The notes under the pieces are model-generated. The model was not told where the DNA came from. It saw only the letters and a program-made list of their open reading frames with translations, and did no database searches. From an uncultured Winogradskyella sp. (GTDB taxonomy: Bacteria; Bacteroidota; Bacteroidia; Flavobacteriales; Flavobacteriaceae), in NCBI RefSeq assembly GCF_947498345.1, contig NZ_CANMJY010000001.1:1-64000 (forward strand): a stretch of DNA of 64,000 nucleotides, given 5' to 3'. Positions 53,980 through 64,000 of this stretch are shown here, piece by piece (the first letter of the stretch is position 1; the number at the start of each line of letters is the position of its first letter). Both the position numbers and the translations under genes were made by a program.

Positions 53980-56787
53980 ATGAGCTTAATAAAAAGAATT
54001 CATTATTTTTTAGTGTGCTTAGTAGTACTAAGTCTTCAATCTCAAGAGGTGCCACCTATTCAGGTTTTTAATCCTCAAGATTATAGTGCCGAAGATCAAA
54101 ATTGGGCAATATCTCAAAATGAAAATGATTTTATTTATGTTGCTAATAATAAAGGACTTTTAGAATATAATGGTGCTTACTGGCAATTATACGAATCCCC
54201 TAATGATGATATTTTGAGATCAGTACATGTAGTTGGAGATAGAATTTATTCTGGCGGTTATATGGATTTTGGGTTTTGGACAAAAAACAAGTTTGGTGGC
54301 CTTCATTATAAATCTTTAACTAAAAACAAAGCTTTTAAAATTAAGGAAGATGAAGAATTTTGGGGAATCATAGATATTGAGGGATTTGTTTTGTTCCAAT
54401 CTCTAGATAGAATATATATTTATAATGCATTTGATGAGAGTACTAGAATTATTGAATCCGAATCCAGGATCAATAAAATGTATAAAACCAATGAAACTAT
54501 TTATTTTCAAAAAAGTGGGATAGGTGTTTTTAAAATAGAAAATGGAAAAGAAGTTTTTGTCACCTCGTCTCTTAGTATTGATAATATTGAGATTATAAAT
54601 GTATTTGATAATCAAAACACCTTACTATTTTTAACTAAAGAGGATGGGTTTTACGAGTTTAAAAACGATAGGGTAGAAAAATGGAATGCTACCGAAAATG
54701 CATTATCTAATGTAAGTATATATAGTAGTACAAAATTGAATGATGGAAGCTTTATTCTCGGTACTATATCCAATGGTATTATTCAATTAGATAAGGAGGG
54801 AAAGATTAGATTAAAAGTTAATAAATCTTATGGTCTAAGTAATAATACAGTATTGTCTGTTAAAGAAGACAATGATGGTAACATTTGGCTAGGCTTAGAT
54901 AATGGAGTTAATGTTATAAATTTAAACTCACCCTATAAAGTTTTTAAGGATAAGCAAGGTAGATTAGGCACAGTATATGCTTCTGTAAAAACAGACAAAA
55001 ACCTCTATTTAGGAACTAATCAAGGTTTATTTTATAAAGCGTTAGATTCTGAGTCTGGTTTTAAATTTATTACTGGTACCGAAGGGCAAGTATGGTGCTT
55101 AAAAATTTTACAAGGTATATTGTTTTGCGGGCATGATAAAGGAACTTTCATAGTTAATAATAATAATGCTCAGAAGATTTCAGAAGAAAAGGGAACTTGG
55201 GAAATAAAAGAAATAGACGATAACCCAAATCTTTTAATCCAAGGTAATTATAGAGGTTTAACCATTTTAGAAAAAAGCACAAATAAGGATTGGCGATATA
55301 GAAATAAAATAAGTGGGTTTGATATTTCATCGAGGTATATAGAGTTTTCGGGAGTTAGTGAAATACTGGTAAGTCATGAGTACAAAGGAGTATACAAAAT
55401 CGAAGTCGATAGTACTTATACCAATGTATTAGAATCTAAAAAAATAGCTATAAAACAAGGCGTAAAATCTAGTATAGTTAAGTTTAATAATTCAGTTTTT
55501 TATAGTTATAAGGAAGGTGTTTTTCGTTATGATGAAAATAACGAGAGATTTGAAAAAGATAGTCTTTTAAGTGCGTTTTTAAGTAAAGAGAAATATCTGT
55601 CGGGTAAGCTTATTAACGATAAAAAAGAGAATAGACTTTGGGGATTTAATGACAACGAGATTGTTTACATTGAGACAGGTAAACTATCAAATAAGCCCGA
55701 TGTGAACATTATATCTATTCCAGGGGAATTGCGCAGTAATAAGACGGGGTATGAGAATCTACTTAATCTGAGTGATGGTAATTATTTGTTTGGCACTACT
55801 GATGGATATTTTGTTATTAATTTAAATAAGCTTCAACAAAATTCGGATAAAATTTATTTAAATGAAGCCTCCTATAGCTCGCTCCATAACGAGTTGGATC
55901 CAATAGATTTTAGCAAGCAAGGTTTAGAATTATCAAACAAAAATAACAGCCTTAAGTTTAAGTATAGTGTTACAAATTATGATAAGCTGTCATCATCAAA
56001 ATATCAATATAGATTATTAGGTATATACGACCAATGGAGTGCATGGTCAAAAGACTCTGAAGTGTTTTTTGAAAACCTACCTTATGGGGATTATAATTTT
56101 GAAGCTAGAGCTATAACAGGCGGTGTTATTACTAACAACAAATTGTCCTATAAATTTTCAATTGACAAACCATGGTACCTAAAGCCATTAGCTATTACAT
56201 TATATGTATTATCGTTTTTATTGTTGGCACTGGTTACGCAATATTTAAATATACGTTATTATAAAAAGCAAAAACGAAAGCTTATTGAGAATAAGGAAAG
56301 AGAGTTAGAGTTGAAACAGTTGGAGAGTCAACGACAGTTAATGGAATTTAAGAATGAGAACTTACAACTAGATATTGAAAACAAAAATAGAGAATTAGGT
56401 ATTGCAACAATGAATTTGGTGAAACGTAATGAGTTTCTCAATACTATTAAAGAAGAATTGTCTAGGGGTAAATCATTAGATGATTTTAAAAAGGTAATTA
56501 AGCTCATTAATTCAAATTTAAATGACACTAACGATTGGAAACTATTTGAGGAAGCTTTTAATAATGTAGATAAAGACTTTATGAAAAAAGTTAAATCGCT
56601 ACATCCCTCTATTACTCCCAACGATCTAAGATTGTGTGCTTACCTGCGCTTAAATTTATCCTCAAAGGAAATAGCCCCATTACTTAATATTTCACATAAA
56701 AGTGTAGAGGTTAAACGCTATCGTTTGCGTAAAAAGATGGGATTAGATCACGAACAAAGCCTCACAAATTACATTTTAGAGCTTTAA
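53980..56787 (+). CDS. Membrane-spanning glycan-responsive regulator: two-component propeller, Y_Y_Y and LuxR HTH
   Basis: 935 residues. Signal peptide (to about 22), then a periplasmic beta-propeller of Reg_prop repeats (for example LSNNTVLSVKEDNDGNIWLGLDNGVNVI), a Y_Y_Y domain (about 655-710, YQYRLLGIYDQWSAW), one membrane helix (about 734-756), a coiled coil, and a LuxR-type helix-turn-helix at 880-930 (LSSKEIAPLLNISHKSVEVKRYRLRKKMG). No histidine kinase or receiver domain is present, so unlike HTCS proteins it would act as a one-component regulator that senses glycan in the periplasm and binds DNA from the membrane (SusR-like). The operon it likely controls starts 268 bp downstream. Confidence 0.93.
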   Translation: MSLIKRIHYFLVCLVVLSLQSQEVPPIQVFNPQDYSAEDQNWAISQNENDFIYVANNKGLLEYNGAYWQLYESPNDDILRSVHVVGDRIYSGGYMDFGFWTKNKFGGLHYKSLTKNKAFKIKEDEEFWGIIDIEGFVLFQSLDRIYIYNAFDESTRIIESESRINKMYKTNETIYFQKSGIGVFKIENGKEVFVTSSLSIDNIEIINVFDNQNTLLFLTKEDGFYEFKNDRVEKWNATENALSNVSIYSSTKLNDGSFILGTISNGIIQLDKEGKIRLKVNKSYGLSNNTVLSVKEDNDGNIWLGLDNGVNVINLNSPYKVFKDKQGRLGTVYASVKTDKNLYLGTNQGLFYKALDSESGFKFITGTEGQVWCLKILQGILFCGHDKGTFIVNNNNAQKISEEKGTWEIKEIDDNPNLLIQGNYRGLTILEKSTNKDWRYRNKISGFDISSRYIEFSGVSEILVSHEYKGVYKIEVDSTYTNVLESKKIAIKQGVKSSIVKFNNSVFYSYKEGVFRYDENNERFEKDSLLSAFLSKEKYLSGKLINDKKENRLWGFNDNEIVYIETGKLSNKPDVNIISIPGELRSNKTGYENLLNLSDGNYLFGTTDGYFVINLNKLQQNSDKIYLNEASYSSLHNELDPIDFSKQGLELSNKNNSLKFKYSVTNYDKLSSSKYQYRLLGIYDQWSAWSKDSEVFFENLPYGDYNFEARAITGGVITNNKLSYKFSIDKPWYLKPLAITLYVLSFLLLALVTQYLNIRYYKKQKRKLIENKERELELKQLESQRQLMEFKNENLQLDIENKNRELGIATMNLVKRNEFLNTIKEELSRGKSLDDFKKVIKLINSNLNDTNDWKLFEEAFNNVDKDFMKKVKSLHPSITPNDLRLCAYLRLNLSSKEIAPLLNISHKSVEVKRYRLRKKMGLDHEQSLTNYILEL

Positions 56788-57055: not shown

Positions 57056-60000
57056 ATGAAAAATTACTTTCTCAAGTTAATATTAATATGTCTTGCTATT
57101 CCTGTTTTTGGACAGGTGGATAAGGTATCAGTTCAAAATGACAGTGAAGGGATGAAATTGGTTGTAAATGGTGAGGACTTTATGATCAATGGGATGAACT
57201 GGGACTATATACCCATAGGCAACGACGTTGTAGATGCAAACTTATTTAGAAAATCAGATGAGGTTATTAAGTCTGCCCTCGATAGAGAAATGGCACTCTT
57301 AAAAAATATGGGCGTTAATGTGATACGTCAATATACAGGAGTACCCGCAAAATGGATACAGTATATTTATGAAAATTATGGCATATATACAATGCTAAAT
57401 CATTCATTTGGCAGGTATGGTCTAACATTAAATGGTGTTTGGACACCAGTTACAATTTACGACGATAAAGTTACTCAAGACCTTTTAATGAGTGAGTTAA
57501 CAAATCTAGTCAATGAATATAAAGACACTCCTGGTCTTCTAATGTACCTTTTAGGTAATGAGAATAATTATGGTTTGTTTTGGCAAGGAGCAGAAACAGA
57601 AGATTTCCCTGAAGGTGAAGAACAAAAAAGAGCAGTTGGAGAGAATCGAGGAAGACCTATGTATAGGCTTATGAATGAAGTTACTAAAGCTATGAAAGCT
57701 ATAGATACTAATCACCCAGTTGCAATATGTAATGGTGATGTTTTATTTATAGATATAATAGCTGAGGAATGCCCTGATATAGATATTTATGGAACTAATA
57801 CTTATAGAGGTGTATCGTTTGGCGATATGTTTCAAGTTGTAAAAGACAAGCTAAATAAGCCTGTAATGTTTACTGAGTTTGGTGCTGATGCATTTAGCGC
57901 AAAAGATAACAAAGAAGATCAGTACTCTCAGGCTTTTTATATGGTTGGAAATTGGAAAGAAATTTATGAAAATGCTGCAGGATTAGGAAAAACAGGAAAC
58001 TCAATAGGAGGGTTTACATTTCAATTTAGCGATGGTTGGTGGAAATTTGGTTTTGACGATAGAAAGAATGCTGATGTTCATGATAATAATGCATCTTGGT
58101 CTAATGGTGGTTATTCCCGAGATATGGCAAAGCCTGGTGATAATAATATGAACGAAGAATGGTTTGGGATTTGTGCCAAAGGTCCAACAGATCCAAGAGG
58201 ACTTTACGAATTATATCCTAGAGCAGCATATTATGCCTTAAAAGATGCGCATCAACTAAATCCGTATTCCGAAGGAATGACCTTAGAGTTTGTAAATGAT
58301 TATTTCAATAATATACAACTCATGGATGCTGTTTTGAGAGCCCGAGGAGATAAAGCTGCACTAGATGGTGGGGGTGATCAAAAAATTAGAATAAGTAATT
58401 TACAGGCTAGGTTTACTACTTTTAATACTGGTGGATCATTAATAACCACACCTGATAATGAAAATCCTAATGAGAATGTATTTCCAAACCAGCTAGGATT
58501 TGATCATATGCAATCTTACTTTGTAGGGGTTGAAGGTAATCCTGCTCCTAATATGAGGGCTAAGGTTAATTTTAACATATTAGGTAATGTAGCAGAAAAC
58601 CCTATTAATGAAATATTCTATGAAAGTGTAGGAAGACCTATTACAGTAACAGGTGTTGATGGTGGTAATAATACAGATGTAGAAATTAATGATTTTAACA
58701 GGCTAAGGGTTTATCAAGCAGAATTTGAATGGAATGCCAAAGATTTTGATTTAAGAGGGTTTTATAGAACAGGACATTATCATTGGGGTTATGAAGGGGA
58801 TTTCTTTGGTCTTTATCCAGAGTCTAACTATGGTCCAAACCTAGATATTTACAATGGTGAGATTTTAGGTTTAGAAATTGATGCTAAAGGAAAACTAGAT
58901 GGATTAAAAGCTGCTTTTGGCCCTCAACTATGGTGGGGAGCCAACCCAACAGCATTATTAAAATATCATAGAAGGTTTGGACATTATGACGTTACAGGTA
59001 TATATCACAGAGATTTACAAACAGAATTAACCTTTGATGATACTGGCCGACGTGTATTAGATGCAAATCAGGTTCGAAGTGGTGTGATTCCCGCTTGGCC
59101 AATGGAAAGAGCTACAATTGCAGTAGAACGAGAGTTTGGCAAGGTAGGTGTTACTTTAGGTGGAATCTGGGCTGGTAATCCTCTTAATGGAAGTTCGTTT
59201 CAGGCAATGGATGGTAATACTGTAGTGGTAGATAAAATTACAAGTAAAGATAATTGGGGTGGTAAAGCAAAAGTCACTTATGAAGGAGGAAAGTTTAATT
59301 GGTATGCCCAAGGCTCGGTAATGGGATTGGTTGCTAATGGAGGAGTTGATCAGACATTAACCTTTACGGGATGGAGATTGAAGGATAGTGGTAGTGGTAA
59401 TATGTCTAATTTCCTTACAGGATTTACTTATGCTACTGGCGATTTCCAAATAGCGCCAAACTTTATGTATCAGAAACCATTAGTTGATCCAATGCCTAGT
59501 GGAGTAAATGGGCCAGGTAGATTAAGAAATTTTATAGATGACCCCTTTGCAGTAAGAGGAGGTAACCGGGAAATGACAGCAGGAGAGATTTTAATTACAT
59601 ATGACCCTGAGCCAGGAACTTGGTTCTATGAATGGAATAATGATAGAGCTGAGGATGCGAAATTTGCAATGAATTTAGGTTTTGTTTATCGCAGTTTGCC
59701 TACAGCTCAAGATGCTCACATTGGTTTCTTAGCTAATCGTACTTTCTTTGCATTTCCTGATTCTGCACCAGCTGAAGATTTATGGGAAGTGCACTCAAGA
59801 ATGGTATCTAAATTAGGTTCGGATTTTGGCGTAATTGGTAATTTCTATTATGGCAACGGACAAGGTAATGGAGATAGTGATAGAACTATTAAGCGATTTG
59901 GAGGAGATATCAGAGCTATTTATAAAAAGTTAAAGTTAGAAGGTCATGTAAAAGTCAACGATTGGGGACCTTTCGATTATCATAGAGATTTTAACTTAAC

Positions 60001-60250
60001 CTACCCTTTACAGTTAATGCTAGATTTATCTACTTCACTGGGCAAGCCAGATTGGTTCATTTTACCTAGCACAACAGTTGGTATTAGAGGTATGTGGCGT
60101 TCATTAGATAGATTTTCACCAAGGTATTCACCAACTAACACCTTCACACCTAATACATTTCCTCCAGAACTTACATTAAGTCCTGCTGGATTTCCTAATG
60201 GTTCAGAATGGGAAATAAGAACCTATGTACATATTAATATTGGCAAATAA
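57056..60250 (+). CDS. Clan GH-A glycoside hydrolase fused to a predicted outer-membrane beta-barrel
   Basis: 1064 residues, signal peptide to about residue 20 (PVFGQ). Residues about 30-410 form a GH2/GH5-like TIM barrel: NGMNWDYIP, GVNVIRQYTG, putative acid/base Glu169 in LLGNENNYG, and putative nucleophile Glu274 in VMFTEFGADAF, a spacing normal for clan GH-A. From about 430 to the end the sequence is alternating amphipathic strands rich in aromatic residues and glycine (for example FNWYAQGSVMGLV, FDLRGFYRTGHYH, KFAMNLGFVYRSL), ending in YVHINIGK, as in an outer-membrane barrel. Not SusC (no plug or TonB box). Substrate is probably beta-1,3-glucan, inferred from the neighbours. First gene of the operon. 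Confidence 0.8.
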   Translation: MKNYFLKLILICLAIPVFGQVDKVSVQNDSEGMKLVVNGEDFMINGMNWDYIPIGNDVVDANLFRKSDEVIKSALDREMALLKNMGVNVIRQYTGVPAKWIQYIYENYGIYTMLNHSFGRYGLTLNGVWTPVTIYDDKVTQDLLMSELTNLVNEYKDTPGLLMYLLGNENNYGLFWQGAETEDFPEGEEQKRAVGENRGRPMYRLMNEVTKAMKAIDTNHPVAICNGDVLFIDIIAEECPDIDIYGTNTYRGVSFGDMFQVVKDKLNKPVMFTEFGADAFSAKDNKEDQYSQAFYMVGNWKEIYENAAGLGKTGNSIGGFTFQFSDGWWKFGFDDRKNADVHDNNASWSNGGYSRDMAKPGDNNMNEEWFGICAKGPTDPRGLYELYPRAAYYALKDAHQLNPYSEGMTLEFVNDYFNNIQLMDAVLRARGDKAALDGGGDQKIRISNLQARFTTFNTGGSLITTPDNENPNENVFPNQLGFDHMQSYFVGVEGNPAPNMRAKVNFNILGNVAENPINEIFYESVGRPITVTGVDGGNNTDVEINDFNRLRVYQAEFEWNAKDFDLRGFYRTGHYHWGYEGDFFGLYPESNYGPNLDIYNGEILGLEIDAKGKLDGLKAAFGPQLWWGANPTALLKYHRRFGHYDVTGIYHRDLQTELTFDDTGRRVLDANQVRSGVIPAWPMERATIAVEREFGKVGVTLGGIWAGNPLNGSSFQAMDGNTVVVDKITSKDNWGGKAKVTYEGGKFNWYAQGSVMGLVANGGVDQTLTFTGWRLKDSGSGNMSNFLTGFTYATGDFQIAPNFMYQKPLVDPMPSGVNGPGRLRNFIDDPFAVRGGNREMTAGEILITYDPEPGTWFYEWNNDRAEDAKFAMNLGFVYRSLPTAQDAHIGFLANRTFFAFPDSAPAEDLWEVHSRMVSKLGSDFGVIGNFYYGNGQGNGDSDRTIKRFGGDIRAIYKKLKLEGHVKVNDWGPFDYHRDFNLTYPLQLMLDLSTSLGKPDWFILPSTTVGIRGMWRSLDRFSPRYSPTNTFTPNTFPPELTLSPAGFPNGSEWEIRTYVHINIGK

Positions 60251-60262
60251 AATAAGCAGACG

Positions 60263-61723
60263 ATGAAAAACATTAAATTATTTAAATTAAGAAACACCAT
60301 CATTGCAGGATTATTACTTGTAATTACCTATGGTTGTGATAGAGATCTTACTGATGATATTGTTGATGCGACTTTTCCAAGTACAGCAGATGTGTTTATT
60401 GATAATCCAGTAGGACTTACAGATGAATTTTTTGAATCGTTCGATCCAGCAGAGGGTTATAATACAGAAGATACTTTTGAGGTTGTTGATGATGAGGCTT
60501 ACGAAGGAACATCTTCTATAAGAATTGACGTTCCTTCTCCCGATAACCCTAATGGATTTCTAGCAGGTGGTATTTTTAGAGACCGTGGAACAGGCCGTGA
60601 TTTAACAAGTTACGATGCTTTAACATTTTGGGCTAAGGCTACAACAACAGCCACTTTAGCTAGTGTTGGTTTTGGTGCAGATTTTGACGAAGACAAATTT
60701 ACAGTTGTTAGATCAGATGTTCAACTAAATACAAATTGGACTAAATATATAATACCTATTCCAGATGCGTCTAAACTTGTCCAAGAAAGAGGTTTGTTTT
60801 CATTTATCGCTGCTCCTTTCGATGTGTTAGGAGATGGTCCTAATGGCAATGAAATAGGGTGGACATTATGGATAGATGAAATACGATATGAAGCACTAGG
60901 AACCCTAGGTCAATCGCGACCTCGCATTTATAATGGAGCAGATTTAGTAGAAGAAACGTTTACGGGTTCTTCTTTTCAGGTTACTCCCCTAACTTATACT
61001 GCTAATTTGCCGACAGGTATTGATGCAACGGTTACTCCTGCATTTAGTTATTTTACATTTGAAAGTTCAAACCCTTCTGTGGCATCTGTAAGTGAGTCAG
61101 GTGAGGTTTTTGTTTTAGGGGATGGTACGGCTACCATTACAGCTACGTTAGCAAATAATCAAGCCGAAGGCTCTTTACAAATTAATGCCGCAGGAGCATT
61201 TGTAAATGCCCCTGACCCAACCGAACCTGCCGCTAATGTTATCTCTATATACAGTGATTCTTATACAGGAGTTAATGGTTTAAATGTTGGCGCTTTTAAT
61301 AATGCAGATATTAATATTCAAACGCAGACATTTGATAGTAATGGGCATATTGTATATGAGAATCTTGAATTTGTTGGCATGAGTTGGGATGGTACTATAG
61401 ATGTGTCTGGTATGACCCATGTACACTTAGATGTTCAGTTAACTAGCCCAGGTTCAACGCTTATCGTAGAATTGATAGATTTTGGACCTGATAATACCGA
61501 TAATGGATTAGTAGGAACAGATGGTTCTGCAGGTGGATTTAATGCAACAAGTCAACTTATGGAAGGTGACTGGGTCGGTATTGACATTCCGCTTAATGCG
61601 TTTACCCTACCAACAGGAGGTGGTGGAGCAGGAAACCCTAATTTAAATAATATGGGGTATGTTGTTTTAGTCTCTAATGGCGGATCTGTTTTAGTTGATA
61701 ATGTTTATTTCTACAATCAATAA
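60263..61723 (+). CDS. Carbohydrate-binding surface lipoprotein (CBM-like, Ig-like, CBM-like)
   Basis: 486 residues. Lipobox ends at Cys in VITYGC (about residue 25), followed by acidic residues. Residues about 55-210 look like a CBM-type galactose-binding fold (GTSSIRIDVPS, LTSYDALTFWAKATT, WTLWIDEIRYEAL). A BIG2-like domain covers 225-310 (FTFESSNPSVASVSESGEVFVLGDGTATITAT). A second similar beta-sandwich follows (320-486; THVHLDVQLTSPGSTLIVELIDFG ... NVYFYNQ). It starts 12 nt after the GH-barrel gene. Likely a surface glycan-binding protein in the role of SusE/F, though not homologous in sequence as far as I can see. Confidence 0.8.
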   Translation: MKNIKLFKLRNTIIAGLLLVITYGCDRDLTDDIVDATFPSTADVFIDNPVGLTDEFFESFDPAEGYNTEDTFEVVDDEAYEGTSSIRIDVPSPDNPNGFLAGGIFRDRGTGRDLTSYDALTFWAKATTTATLASVGFGADFDEDKFTVVRSDVQLNTNWTKYIIPIPDASKLVQERGLFSFIAAPFDVLGDGPNGNEIGWTLWIDEIRYEALGTLGQSRPRIYNGADLVEETFTGSSFQVTPLTYTANLPTGIDATVTPAFSYFTFESSNPSVASVSESGEVFVLGDGTATITATLANNQAEGSLQINAAGAFVNAPDPTEPAANVISIYSDSYTGVNGLNVGAFNNADINIQTQTFDSNGHIVYENLEFVGMSWDGTIDVSGMTHVHLDVQLTSPGSTLIVELIDFGPDNTDNGLVGTDGSAGGFNATSQLMEGDWVGIDIPLNAFTLPTGGGGAGNPNLNNMGYVVLVSNGGSVLVDNVYFYNQ

Positions 61724-61733
61724 ATTTTAAATC

Positions 61734-62603
61734 ATGAATGTAATAATTAAAAAAAATATAACGGCATTGATATTAATCTCTGGATTAATTTTCACTAGTT
61801 GTGATCTTGATGAAACCCAAGAAGTAGCAACACTAGATAATTTAGTAATGCAAGATGAGTTTGATGTAGATGGGGCACCTAACCCAGGCATGTGGAACTA
61901 CGAAATTGGCGATGGAACTGCGCAAGGCATCCCAGGGTGGGGAAATAATGAATTACAATATTACACAGATCGACCAGAAAATGTAAAAGTTGAAAACGGT
62001 ATGCTAGTACTTACAGCTCGCGAAGAATTATTTGAAGGGTCAAGTTATACTTCGGCGAGAATTACTACGCAAAACCTATTCGAACAGAAATATGGCCGTT
62101 TCGAAGCACGCATTCGTTTACCTTGGGGTAAAGGAATATGGCCAGCATTTTGGTTATTAGGCAACGATTGTGATCAAAACCCTTGGCCAAATTGTGGTGA
62201 AATAGACATTATGGAATACCTTGGCAATTCACCGACGGTAGTGTTTGGTAGTGTTCATGGTCCAGGATATAATGGTGGTGATTCTGTTTCAAAAGAATAT
62301 GGGATTGAAGATGGTCGTTTTGATACTGATTTCCACGTATTTGGTATAGAATGGAGTCCTAACCGCATTAACTACTATGTTGATGACGAATTGTACCAAT
62401 CTATAACTCCAGAATCCATAGCCGAAGATGCTCAAGAATCTATTGAAGATAGTGAACTTTCTAATGCTGGAGACTGGGTATTTAATCGTCCGTTTTATAT
62501 CATTATAAATATGGCTGTAGGTGGAGATTTACCTGGTCCGCCAAATGCTCAAACTGTATTTCCGCAAACAATGTTAGTGGACTATGTTAGAGTTTATAAT
62601 TAA
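61734..62603 (+). CDS. GH16 family beta-glucanase (laminarinase-type) lipoprotein
   Basis: 289 residues. Lipobox at FTSC (about residue 23). The GH16 active site is GEIDIMEYLG, with nucleophile Glu156, Asp158 and acid/base Glu161 (ExDxxE, the beta-bulge form found in laminarinases). Other GH16 features are WNYEIGDG, GWGNNELQYYT, KYGRFEARIRLPWGKGIWPAFW and FHVFGIEWSPNRINYYVDD. It hydrolyses beta-1,3 or mixed-linkage glucan at the cell surface. It starts 10 nt after the CBM lipoprotein. Confidence 0.95.
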   Translation: MNVIIKKNITALILISGLIFTSCDLDETQEVATLDNLVMQDEFDVDGAPNPGMWNYEIGDGTAQGIPGWGNNELQYYTDRPENVKVENGMLVLTAREELFEGSSYTSARITTQNLFEQKYGRFEARIRLPWGKGIWPAFWLLGNDCDQNPWPNCGEIDIMEYLGNSPTVVFGSVHGPGYNGGDSVSKEYGIEDGRFDTDFHVFGIEWSPNRINYYVDDELYQSITPESIAEDAQESIEDSELSNAGDWVFNRPFYIIINMAVGGDLPGPPNAQTVFPQTMLVDYVRVYN

Positions 62604-62619: not shown

Positions 62620-63447
62620 ATGAAATCATTAAAATATAAAATAGCATTACTTTCTATTATTATTCTATCGTCTTCAATCATATCTTGTGAGGATAATGAT
62701 AGTGGTGTTTCCTTATTAGGTTTAGAGGCAAGGTTTTTAGCAGAAGTTCAATCTAGTACTATAACTTTTACTAATATCTCAAATGATGCAACGAGCTATA
62801 TGTGGAATTTTGGAAATGGTGATACATCCACTCTTGTAAACCCTGTAGTCACCTTTGACAATGGAACATATAATGTAACCTTAACTGCATATGATGATAA
62901 TGGAAATTCTGACATATTTTCTGAAACGTTTACAATAGATTGCGAAACATCAGAAAACATTGACCCTGCTAACGGTAATCTTAACTGGACGTTTTTTACT
63001 GTATCAGATGATACAACATTTGATGCATTTGGTAATACAGCAGGTTTTATCGTAGAAAATCCTGTTATAGATGCGGTTAACTCTAGTTGTAGTGTGCAAC
63101 GTTATGAAAAAACAGCAGGATGTTTCACTTTTGCAGGATTAGGTGTTGGGTTTGATACGCCAATAGATTTTTCTCTGCCAGAAACGGGAAAAACCTTTAC
63201 AATGAAGGTACTTGCTGAAACACAACTAACAGATGTTACATTACGATTAGAATTTATGCCATTTCCAAATACAGAACCTTCTCAAGACAGAGTGGCTAGT
63301 ATTACACAATTGGGAGAGTGGCAAGAACTAACATTTGACTTTACTGATGTGCCTTCTGGAACGTTTCAGAGTATGATTATTTACTTCGAAAGAAATGCAC
63401 CTTGTGACGGCGATATCTATTATTTTGATGATATAATTCAACAGTAA
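62620..63447 (+). CDS. PKD-domain lipoprotein with C-terminal CBM-like module
   Basis: 275 residues. Lipobox ends at Cys in SIISC (about residue 23). A PKD domain at about 37-108 shows ATSYMWNFGNGDTST and GTYNVTLTAYDDNG. The C-terminal 150 residues (residues about 125-275; FTFAGLGVGFDTPIDFSL, DVTLRLEFMPFPN, IYYFDDI) look like a carbohydrate-binding beta-sandwich. Two cysteine-rich spots (CSVQRYEKTAGC; APCD) may form disulphides. Starts 16 nt after the GH16 gene. A surface glycan-binding role fits the setting, but there is no direct proof. Confidence 0.82.
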   Translation: MKSLKYKIALLSIIILSSSIISCEDNDSGVSLLGLEARFLAEVQSSTITFTNISNDATSYMWNFGNGDTSTLVNPVVTFDNGTYNVTLTAYDDNGNSDIFSETFTIDCETSENIDPANGNLNWTFFTVSDDTTFDAFGNTAGFIVENPVIDAVNSSCSVQRYEKTAGCFTFAGLGVGFDTPIDFSLPETGKTFTMKVLAETQLTDVTLRLEFMPFPNTEPSQDRVASITQLGEWQELTFDFTDVPSGTFQSMIIYFERNAPCDGDIYYFDDIIQQ

Positions 63448-63573: not shown

Positions 63574-64000
63574 ATGCCTAACACACAAATATTAGATAAG
63601 ACAGTGAAATTAGAAGAAGTTTCAATTGATAATAAAGCTTATTTTAAGATTTCAAATAGCAATGAGATGCGCCCATTTTTTATGAGCATTGTCAGTGATT
63701 CTAACCATTGGATGTTTATATCGAGCAATGGTGGGCTAACTGCAGGGCGAAAAAACTCAGAATTTGCGTTATTCCCCTATTATTCTGATGATAAAATTAC
63801 AGAATCCTCAGAAATTACAGGTGCAAAATCTATTTTTCAAATCATAAAAAATGGTGAGAAATTTATTTGGGAACCTTTCTCAATAAGATTTCAGGATAAC
63901 TACGATACAAGAAATAATCTTTATAAAAGTGTTTATGGCAATTCCATCATTTTTGAAGAAGAAAACCTGGATTTAGAGCTTACGTTTAAATACGAATGGT
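63574..64000 (+). CDS. N-terminal part of a GH94/GH149/GH161-like glycan phosphorylase (partial)
   Basis: Open from the ATG at 63574 to the window edge (142 codons, no stop); an in-frame TAG lies directly upstream at 63568. It is absent from the ORF track because no stop is included. The translated start (MPNTQILDKTVKLEEVS ... RPFFMSIVSDSNHWMFISSNGGLTAGRK) has the character of the N-terminal beta-sandwich of inverting glucan phosphorylases such as GH94 and GH149. No signal peptide, so cytoplasmic. If correct it would phosphorolyse beta-1,3-oligoglucans produced by the surface GH16. The family is my recollection of the sequence pattern and needs a search. Confidence 0.6.
   Translation, partial: MPNTQILDKTVKLEEVSIDNKAYFKISNSNEMRPFFMSIVSDSNHWMFISSNGGLTAGRKNSEFALFPYYSDDKITESSEITGAKSIFQIIKNGEKFIWEPFSIRFQDNYDTRNNLYKSVYGNSIIFEEENLDLELTFKYEW

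Follow-up and report, generated by a model that had tools for sequence, protein, structure and literature searches.

The window, that is, the whole 64,000-nucleotide stretch of Winogradskyella DNA analyzed here, encodes a protein in which a glycoside hydrolase of clan GH-A and a predicted outer-membrane beta-barrel are parts of a single chain. The gene belongs to a beta-1,3-glucan locus, and we consider it somewhat probable (roughly 55%) that its product lets beta-glucan oligosaccharides in through the outer membrane and tethers a periplasmic glucanase to the inner mouth of the barrel. The fusion is carried by marine, and some gut, Bacteroidota that use algal beta-1,3-glucan, and in many of these carriers it appears to substitute for the SusC/SusD importer normally employed.

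The fusion protein and its domains

The following features were assigned within the fusion gene.

57056..60250, + strand: whole fusion gene, GH-A enzyme and outer-membrane barrel; single open ATG frame of 1064 aa, full-length relatives 53-87% identical
57056..57115, + strand: predicted type I signal peptide without a lipobox Cys, residues 1-20; read from the sequence, AF2 helix 2-19
57125..58255, + strand: GH-A TIM-barrel domain, residues 24-400; Pfam PF02836, AF2, profile matches to GH158, GH2 and GH157, best Foldseek match GH158
57560..57562, + strand: Glu169, putative acid/base in a GNEN motif; invariant in 111 sequences and in standalone relatives
57875..57877, + strand: Glu274, putative nucleophile in a TEFGAD motif; invariant in 111 sequences and in standalone relatives, aligned with the Glu of the GH158 TEFG motif
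58253..58384, + strand: predicted helical linker, residues 400-443; AF2 helices 389-429, least conserved part (2.69 bits)
58385..60244, + strand: predicted outer-membrane beta-barrel of about 24 strands, residues 444-1063; AF2, strand alternation and loop pattern
58772..58858, + strand: predicted surface loop, residues 573-601 (GHYHWGYEGDFFGLYPESNYGPNLDIYNG; also given as HWGYEGDFFGLYPE...); nearly invariant, mean information 4.01 bits

The uninterrupted frame described in the original prediction is maintained in the Bacteroidota homologues at the identities given above, and the signal peptide proposed there is recognizable both as a signal-like stretch in the sequence and as the N-terminal helix of the AF2 model; a lipobox is absent in 109 of the 110 homologues and was scored in one. 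Relatives of the fusion were found in hundreds of genome-contig stretches, of which the best 80 were retained. The AF2 model was obtained with an 81-row alignment limited to these 80 closest contigs, and is thus built on rows that are 72-87% identical. It consists of a TIM barrel (residues ~24-400), helices (389-429) and 24 antiparallel strands, with a mean pLDDT of 66 (about 80-88 in many strand cores) and a pTM of 0.49, which makes the relative placing of the enzyme and barrel domains uncertain; the model from the single sequence without an alignment (pLDDT 29) is uninformative. In a Foldseek search, the model matched GH158, GH2 and GH157 enzymes as well as TonB-dependent receptor barrels, the whole-model scores being low because the query contains two unlike domains. 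Membrane-type strands follow the TIM barrel in the predicted structure, rather than only beta-sandwich or helical modules after residue 410.

The N-terminal part had been assigned to clan GH-A, with Glu169 and Glu274 as putative catalytic residues, and this assignment agrees with the Pfam match, the AF2 model and the conservation of N168-E169 and E274 without variation across the 111 sequences. The Pfam Glyco_hydro_2_C family (PF02836) matches residues 34-295 with 24.4 bits (cut-off 21), and one standalone relative (see below) with 48 bits; the strands of the TIM barrel lie between residues 44 and 321 in the model. In profile comparisons the enzyme matches GH158 (E 6.5e-11, with the nucleophile aligned), and GH2 beta-galactosidases (8e-11) and GH157 (4e-10) match almost equally well; among these, GH158 and GH157 are the families that act on beta-1,3-glucan. 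The fusion enzyme shares the clan GH-A fold with all three families, with GH158 the best fold match, but does not reach high identity with any one of them and, whereas those enzymes are soluble or lipid-anchored, is attached to a barrel. The jelly-roll and Ig-like accessory domains of GH2 enzymes were found neither by Pfam nor by AF2 ahead of the TIM barrel, which starts at residue ~34.

According to the model, the C-terminal part is an outer-membrane barrel behind the enzyme, of about 24 strands, with the strand count and closure uncertain. The amphipathic, aromatic-rich strands that had been noticed in the sequence, ending in a beta strand, are reproduced by AF2 as 24 strands of 7-16 residues each, which span residues 444 to 1063, the last of them at the C-terminus. 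The protein thus combines a signal peptide, an even number of alternating strands and a C-terminal last strand, features that are characteristic of outer-membrane beta-barrels. The loops after odd strands are 23, 40, 29, 7, 30, 25, 26, 31, 28, 13, 11 and 33 residues long, and the turns after even strands 2, 3, 6, 2, 2, 3, 2, 20, 2, 2 and 9 residues. The in/out alternation of interface hydrophobicity along the strands, averaged over the 111 sequences, is 0.69 compared with 0.37 +/- 0.05 when positions are shuffled within strands (2000 shuffles, highest 0.55), in a comparison that is not blind to the model, from which the strand limits come. Of the outward positions, 40% are aliphatic, 28% aromatic and 7% charged, as against 23%, 5% and 30%, respectively, of the inward ones. 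The predicted surface loops are conserved at 3.24 bits, compared with 3.37 bits for the enzyme, and within the barrel the inward residues are more conserved than the outward ones (3.44 vs 3.10 bits). Such conservation of surface loops and inward residues is not expected of a mere anchor and suggests a function beyond anchoring.

The C-terminal 620 residues showed no credible Pfam match, be it to a binding-module, porin or receptor family, in any of 19 relatives, and no match among the sequences of solved structures in the PDB. The absence of a barrel plug from the original prediction's reading holds in Pfam searches as well: the plug domain PF07715 is not found in the fusion and is matched by the true SusC proteins of these loci. 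Comparison of the barrel with the SusC profile revealed no relation (hhalign probability 0.5%), so that descent of the barrel from SusC is unsupported.

The beta-1,3-glucan locus and its distribution

The fusion gene is surrounded by the following genes.

53980..56787, + strand: upstream regulator with a Reg_prop propeller, a Y_Y_Y domain and a LuxR-type HTH; Pfam, and in many loci the fusion is preceded by a related gene
60263..61723, + strand: lipoprotein with a Big_2 domain, probably surface glycan binding; Pfam, 108/110 loci, acidic export signal
61734..62603, + strand: GH16 lipoprotein, probably a surface endo-glucanase; Pfam PF00722, 107/110 loci, acidic export signal
62620..63447, + strand: PKD-domain lipoprotein, probably surface; Pfam, and PKD lipoproteins from such loci carry the acidic export signal
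63574..64000 (to about 67020 of the contig), + strand: start of a GH149 beta-1,3-glucan phosphorylase; 1654 bits to PDB 6hq6, full ORF in L111

The three lipoprotein genes follow the fusion at a spacing of 10-17 bases and are themselves followed by the GH149 gene, which is identified by its match to a solved beta-1,3-oligosaccharide phosphorylase (6hq6). Beyond the window, the locus encodes a GH17 lipoprotein, a GH30 enzyme, two GPH/MFS-like transporters, two short GH17-like proteins and a VCBS-like lipoprotein. This clustering of beta-1,3-glucan enzymes (GH16, GH149, GH17, GH30) with MFS transporters, as read from the sequences, identifies the locus as a beta-1,3-glucan locus. A laminarin locus described in Muricauda comprises a LuxR regulator, GH2, GH16, GH149, GH30, MFS and GH17 (PMC13188888). 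The 'GH2 beta-glycosidase' gene there is a counterpart of the fusion gene, in a comparable locus with a very similar gene order; it is treated there as a plain GH2, in a main text that contains neither 'outer membrane' nor 'porin' (PMC13188888).

Several other proteins encoded in these loci deserve mention. The tandem short GH17-like proteins (L111:11565-13392) have no signal peptide and are probably cytoplasmic; their Muricauda relatives have been described as transglycosylases (PMC13188888). The binding lipoprotein (60263-61723) and a protein encoded at the opposite end of the locus (L164:126-1475) have a segment in common (VISIYSDSYTGV / VISFFSDAYNDI), with the appearance of an unnamed carbohydrate-binding module, and the C-terminus of the latter protein resembles a type IX secretion sorting sequence.

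Relatives of the fusion are present in 36 of the 61 Winogradskyella genomes, one of them as a fragment and one split, and in 35 of the 396 genomes sampled across the phylum Bacteroidota; no relatives were detected in the viral contigs searched. All complete barrel matches in the 396 genomes lie in frames of about 1046-1084 aa with the enzyme attached, the few shorter matches being partial, and no complete barrel without the enzyme was found in these genomes. Distant carriers include Persicobacter (59% identity) and Bacteroides finegoldii (56%), in which the RefSeq product is 'glycoside hydrolase family 2 TIM barrel-domain containing protein'. The latter record (NZ_OY725931.1, L142) is filed as a plasmid and looks chromosomal, carrying valS, rpsA and glutamine synthetase; it contains a compact glucan locus without SusCD, with the fusion, GH16 and GH3. 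In one Winogradskyella genome the fusion gene consists of two overlapping frames near residue 265 (G031:C164:56417-59580), due to either a frameshift or an assembly error.

SusCD and the standalone form of the enzyme

The original prediction had noted the absence of SusCD from the window and had suggested that the fusion perhaps stands in for it. A search of the window indeed identified no SusC or SusD, and neither is present at the fusion locus. The source genome encodes four SusCD pairs, none of them part of this locus; by their neighbours, one is read as a starch system, one as an alginate system and two near-identical ones as not linked to glycans. The latter are sets of SusC, SusD and a 250-aa lipoprotein with no adjoining sugar enzymes (G000:C1:98761-103345 and G000:C6:5641-10186), apparently a recent duplication.

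Across loci, SusCD comes and goes next to the fusion. SusC or SusD is encoded nearby in 27 of the 74 loci with full flanks, and SusD, adjoining its own SusC, in a minority of the Flavobacteriaceae fusion loci; in the 22 loci from other families, SusCD is absent near the fusion throughout, although the flanks of these loci (2.5-12 kb upstream and 7-20 kb downstream) are limited, so that some calls of absence may be wrong. A genome-wide search for the laminarin-type SusD gave no hit in 14 of the 24 congeners that carry the fusion. In a tree of GH149 from 72 loci, the linkage to SusCD shows 14 changes, through which the fusion persists, and the fused or standalone state changes twice.

The standalone state is found in congeners that lack the fusion, where the syntenic locus has the order SusD-PKD-GH16-GH149-GH17-GH-GH30-MFS. 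The 'GH' gene encodes a lipoprotein of 350 residues that is a homologue of the fusion enzyme, with 26-29% identity and the same active-site motifs. GH149 is present in 33 of 38 congeners, and each of these 33 has exactly one form, fused or standalone; genus-wide, the fused form occurs in 36 and the standalone form in 15 genomes with an overlap of 0 (P 4.6e-8). With two architecture changes on the tree, this exclusion does not represent many independent events and was dropped as strong independent evidence, and the Fisher P of 0.004 for SusD has the same flaw. More weight is therefore placed on the changes of SusCD linkage and on a recombinant locus in Winogradskyella ludwigii. This species carries the fusion, yet its GH149 falls within the standalone clade. 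Its GH149, GH17, GH30 and LacI are nearest to SusCD/standalone loci (83-89%), whereas another fusion locus is nearest for GH16, the binding lipoprotein and the fusion (82-90%) and for the regulator (66%), with the junction between GH16 and GH149. Neither a laminarin-type SusD nor a standalone GH was found in this genome. By sequence comparison, a block with the fusion has replaced SusCD and the standalone glucanase gene is gone, a single event of the kind that substitution predicts. The notion of a SusCD stand-in thus agrees with the loci of other families, the 14 congeners and this swap, but, given the many loci in which SusCD lies beside the fusion, replacement is not universal.

These data also bear on an unlikely alternative, in which the barrel only holds the enzyme or docks surface lipoproteins, sugars do not pass through it, and uptake depends on other receptors. 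The binding lipoprotein and GH16 follow the fusion in nearly all loci, as dock partners would, SusCD co-occurs in many loci and the source genome has other SusC proteins. However, a lipid anchor would suffice for this purpose, as it does for the standalone relative, and both the conservation of inward residues and surface loops and the disappearance of SusCD upon takeover by the fusion suggest more than a scaffold.

Side of the enzyme and the proposed import route

In outer-membrane barrels, the long loops usually lie outside and the C-terminus inside. In the fusion, the long loops follow odd strands; this rule would have strand 1 begin on the periplasmic side and would place the enzyme there as well, unless it is threaded through. 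Surface lipoproteins of Bacteroidota have acidic residues right after the lipid Cys (PMC5080379). At least two acidic residues follow the Cys in 80-100% of the GH16, binding and PKD lipoproteins and SusD, and in 0-22% of GH17, GH30, GH3 and the standalone GH; the standalone relative, without the export signal, is accordingly predicted to be periplasmic, in agreement with the topology of the fusion. We infer that the fusion enzyme is on the periplasmic side. The suggestion that the barrel takes up the products of its own enzyme is therefore modified with respect to the enzyme, which probably cuts what enters instead of feeding surface products inward; uptake through the barrel is kept as a proposal.

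The threaded arrangement, in which the barrel passes the enzyme to the surface in the manner of an autotransporter, with the helical linker in the lumen and the GH domain acting as a surface glucanase, is improbable, slightly more so than a scaffold. It would fit the position of a passenger ahead of a C-terminal barrel, the helices 389-429 directly before strand 1 and the predicted location of the endo-acting GH16 outside. Classical autotransporters, however, have about 12 barrel strands, against about 24 strands and 620 residues here, the homologous standalone enzyme has no surface-export signal, and translocation of a TIM barrel would require it to be unfolded; no autotransporter Pfam match was obtained for the fusion. 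That there is no membrane barrel at all and the C-terminal part comprises soluble beta modules, such as binding domains, is very improbable, the single point in its favour (no porin or receptor family match by sequence) being opposed by the AF2 model, the strand alternation, the aromatic and aliphatic outward faces, the alternating loop lengths and the Foldseek matches to receptor barrels, along with the lack of a binding-module family match.

Under the preferred reading, an entry route with a tethered glucanase, surface lipoproteins (GH16 and binding proteins) would cut and hold beta-1,3-glucan, and the oligosaccharides would cross the outer membrane via the roughly 24-strand barrel. The GH-A domain, at the inner mouth in the position of the SusC plug, would cut them on arrival, and the process would be completed by periplasmic GH17 and GH30, inner-membrane GPH/MFS transporters and cytoplasmic GH149. 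In loci without SusCD, the fusion would fill the SusCD role with no TonB plug; in loci with SusCD, the two would operate side by side. More tentatively, at somewhat under even odds, we propose that the protein is a TonB- and SusD-independent glycan importer of marine and gut Bacteroidota, a large plug-less barrel with its own glucanase at the periplasmic mouth, in which beta-1,3-glucan would be drawn inward in one direction by being cleaved as it enters. Such import would proceed without energy coupling; no energy source for it is apparent.

One close counterpart is SusC/SusD, likewise with a large outer-membrane barrel that heads a glycan locus, next to genes for surface binding lipoproteins and an endo-glucanase, and that is preceded by an N-terminal domain. 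The fusion, in contrast, has a catalytic domain in place of the plug, lacks both the plug and the carboxypeptidase-regulatory-like domain of SusC, shows no profile similarity to it, has about 24 strands and would need no SusD. The passive sugar porins LamB, ScrY, CymA and ChiP have 14-18 strands and no enzyme domain. Like the proposed route, they provide plug-less entry for oligosaccharides, with periplasmic consumption maintaining the gradient, but their barrels are smaller and carry no enzyme, and no sequence relation to the fusion was found in Pfam or PDB sequences. In Formosa, FbGH17b is an MFS transporter fused to GH17 (PMC6246565), so that transporter and glucanase share one chain in a laminarin locus, with a proposed link between hydrolysis and uptake, as in the fusion; however, FbGH17b is a helical transporter of the inner membrane and the fusion a beta-barrel of the outer membrane.

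Enzyme-transporter fusions and glycan import barrels are thus already known, whereas TonB-free, cleavage-driven import would, if shown, be categorically new. The annotations and papers examined name the gene only 'GH2', and a literature search of partial coverage yielded no description of a glycosidase fused to an outer-membrane barrel. The SusCD pair of the strict PUL definition is not present at the fusion locus, and loci without this pair do not count as canonical PULs; if the importer reading is true, many glucan loci have been wrongly taken to lack an outer-membrane transporter of their own, and hydrolysis and passage in glycan import are linked within one chain. The fusion is a clear, testable target.

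Finally, W. ludwigii encodes a 785-aa frame (L204:8395-10749) whose first part reads as an MFS sugar transporter and which exceeds its relatives in length by about 300 residues. At this position, other loci have MFS and short GH17 genes side by side, and the frame is possibly an MFS-GH17 fusion similar to FbGH17b.
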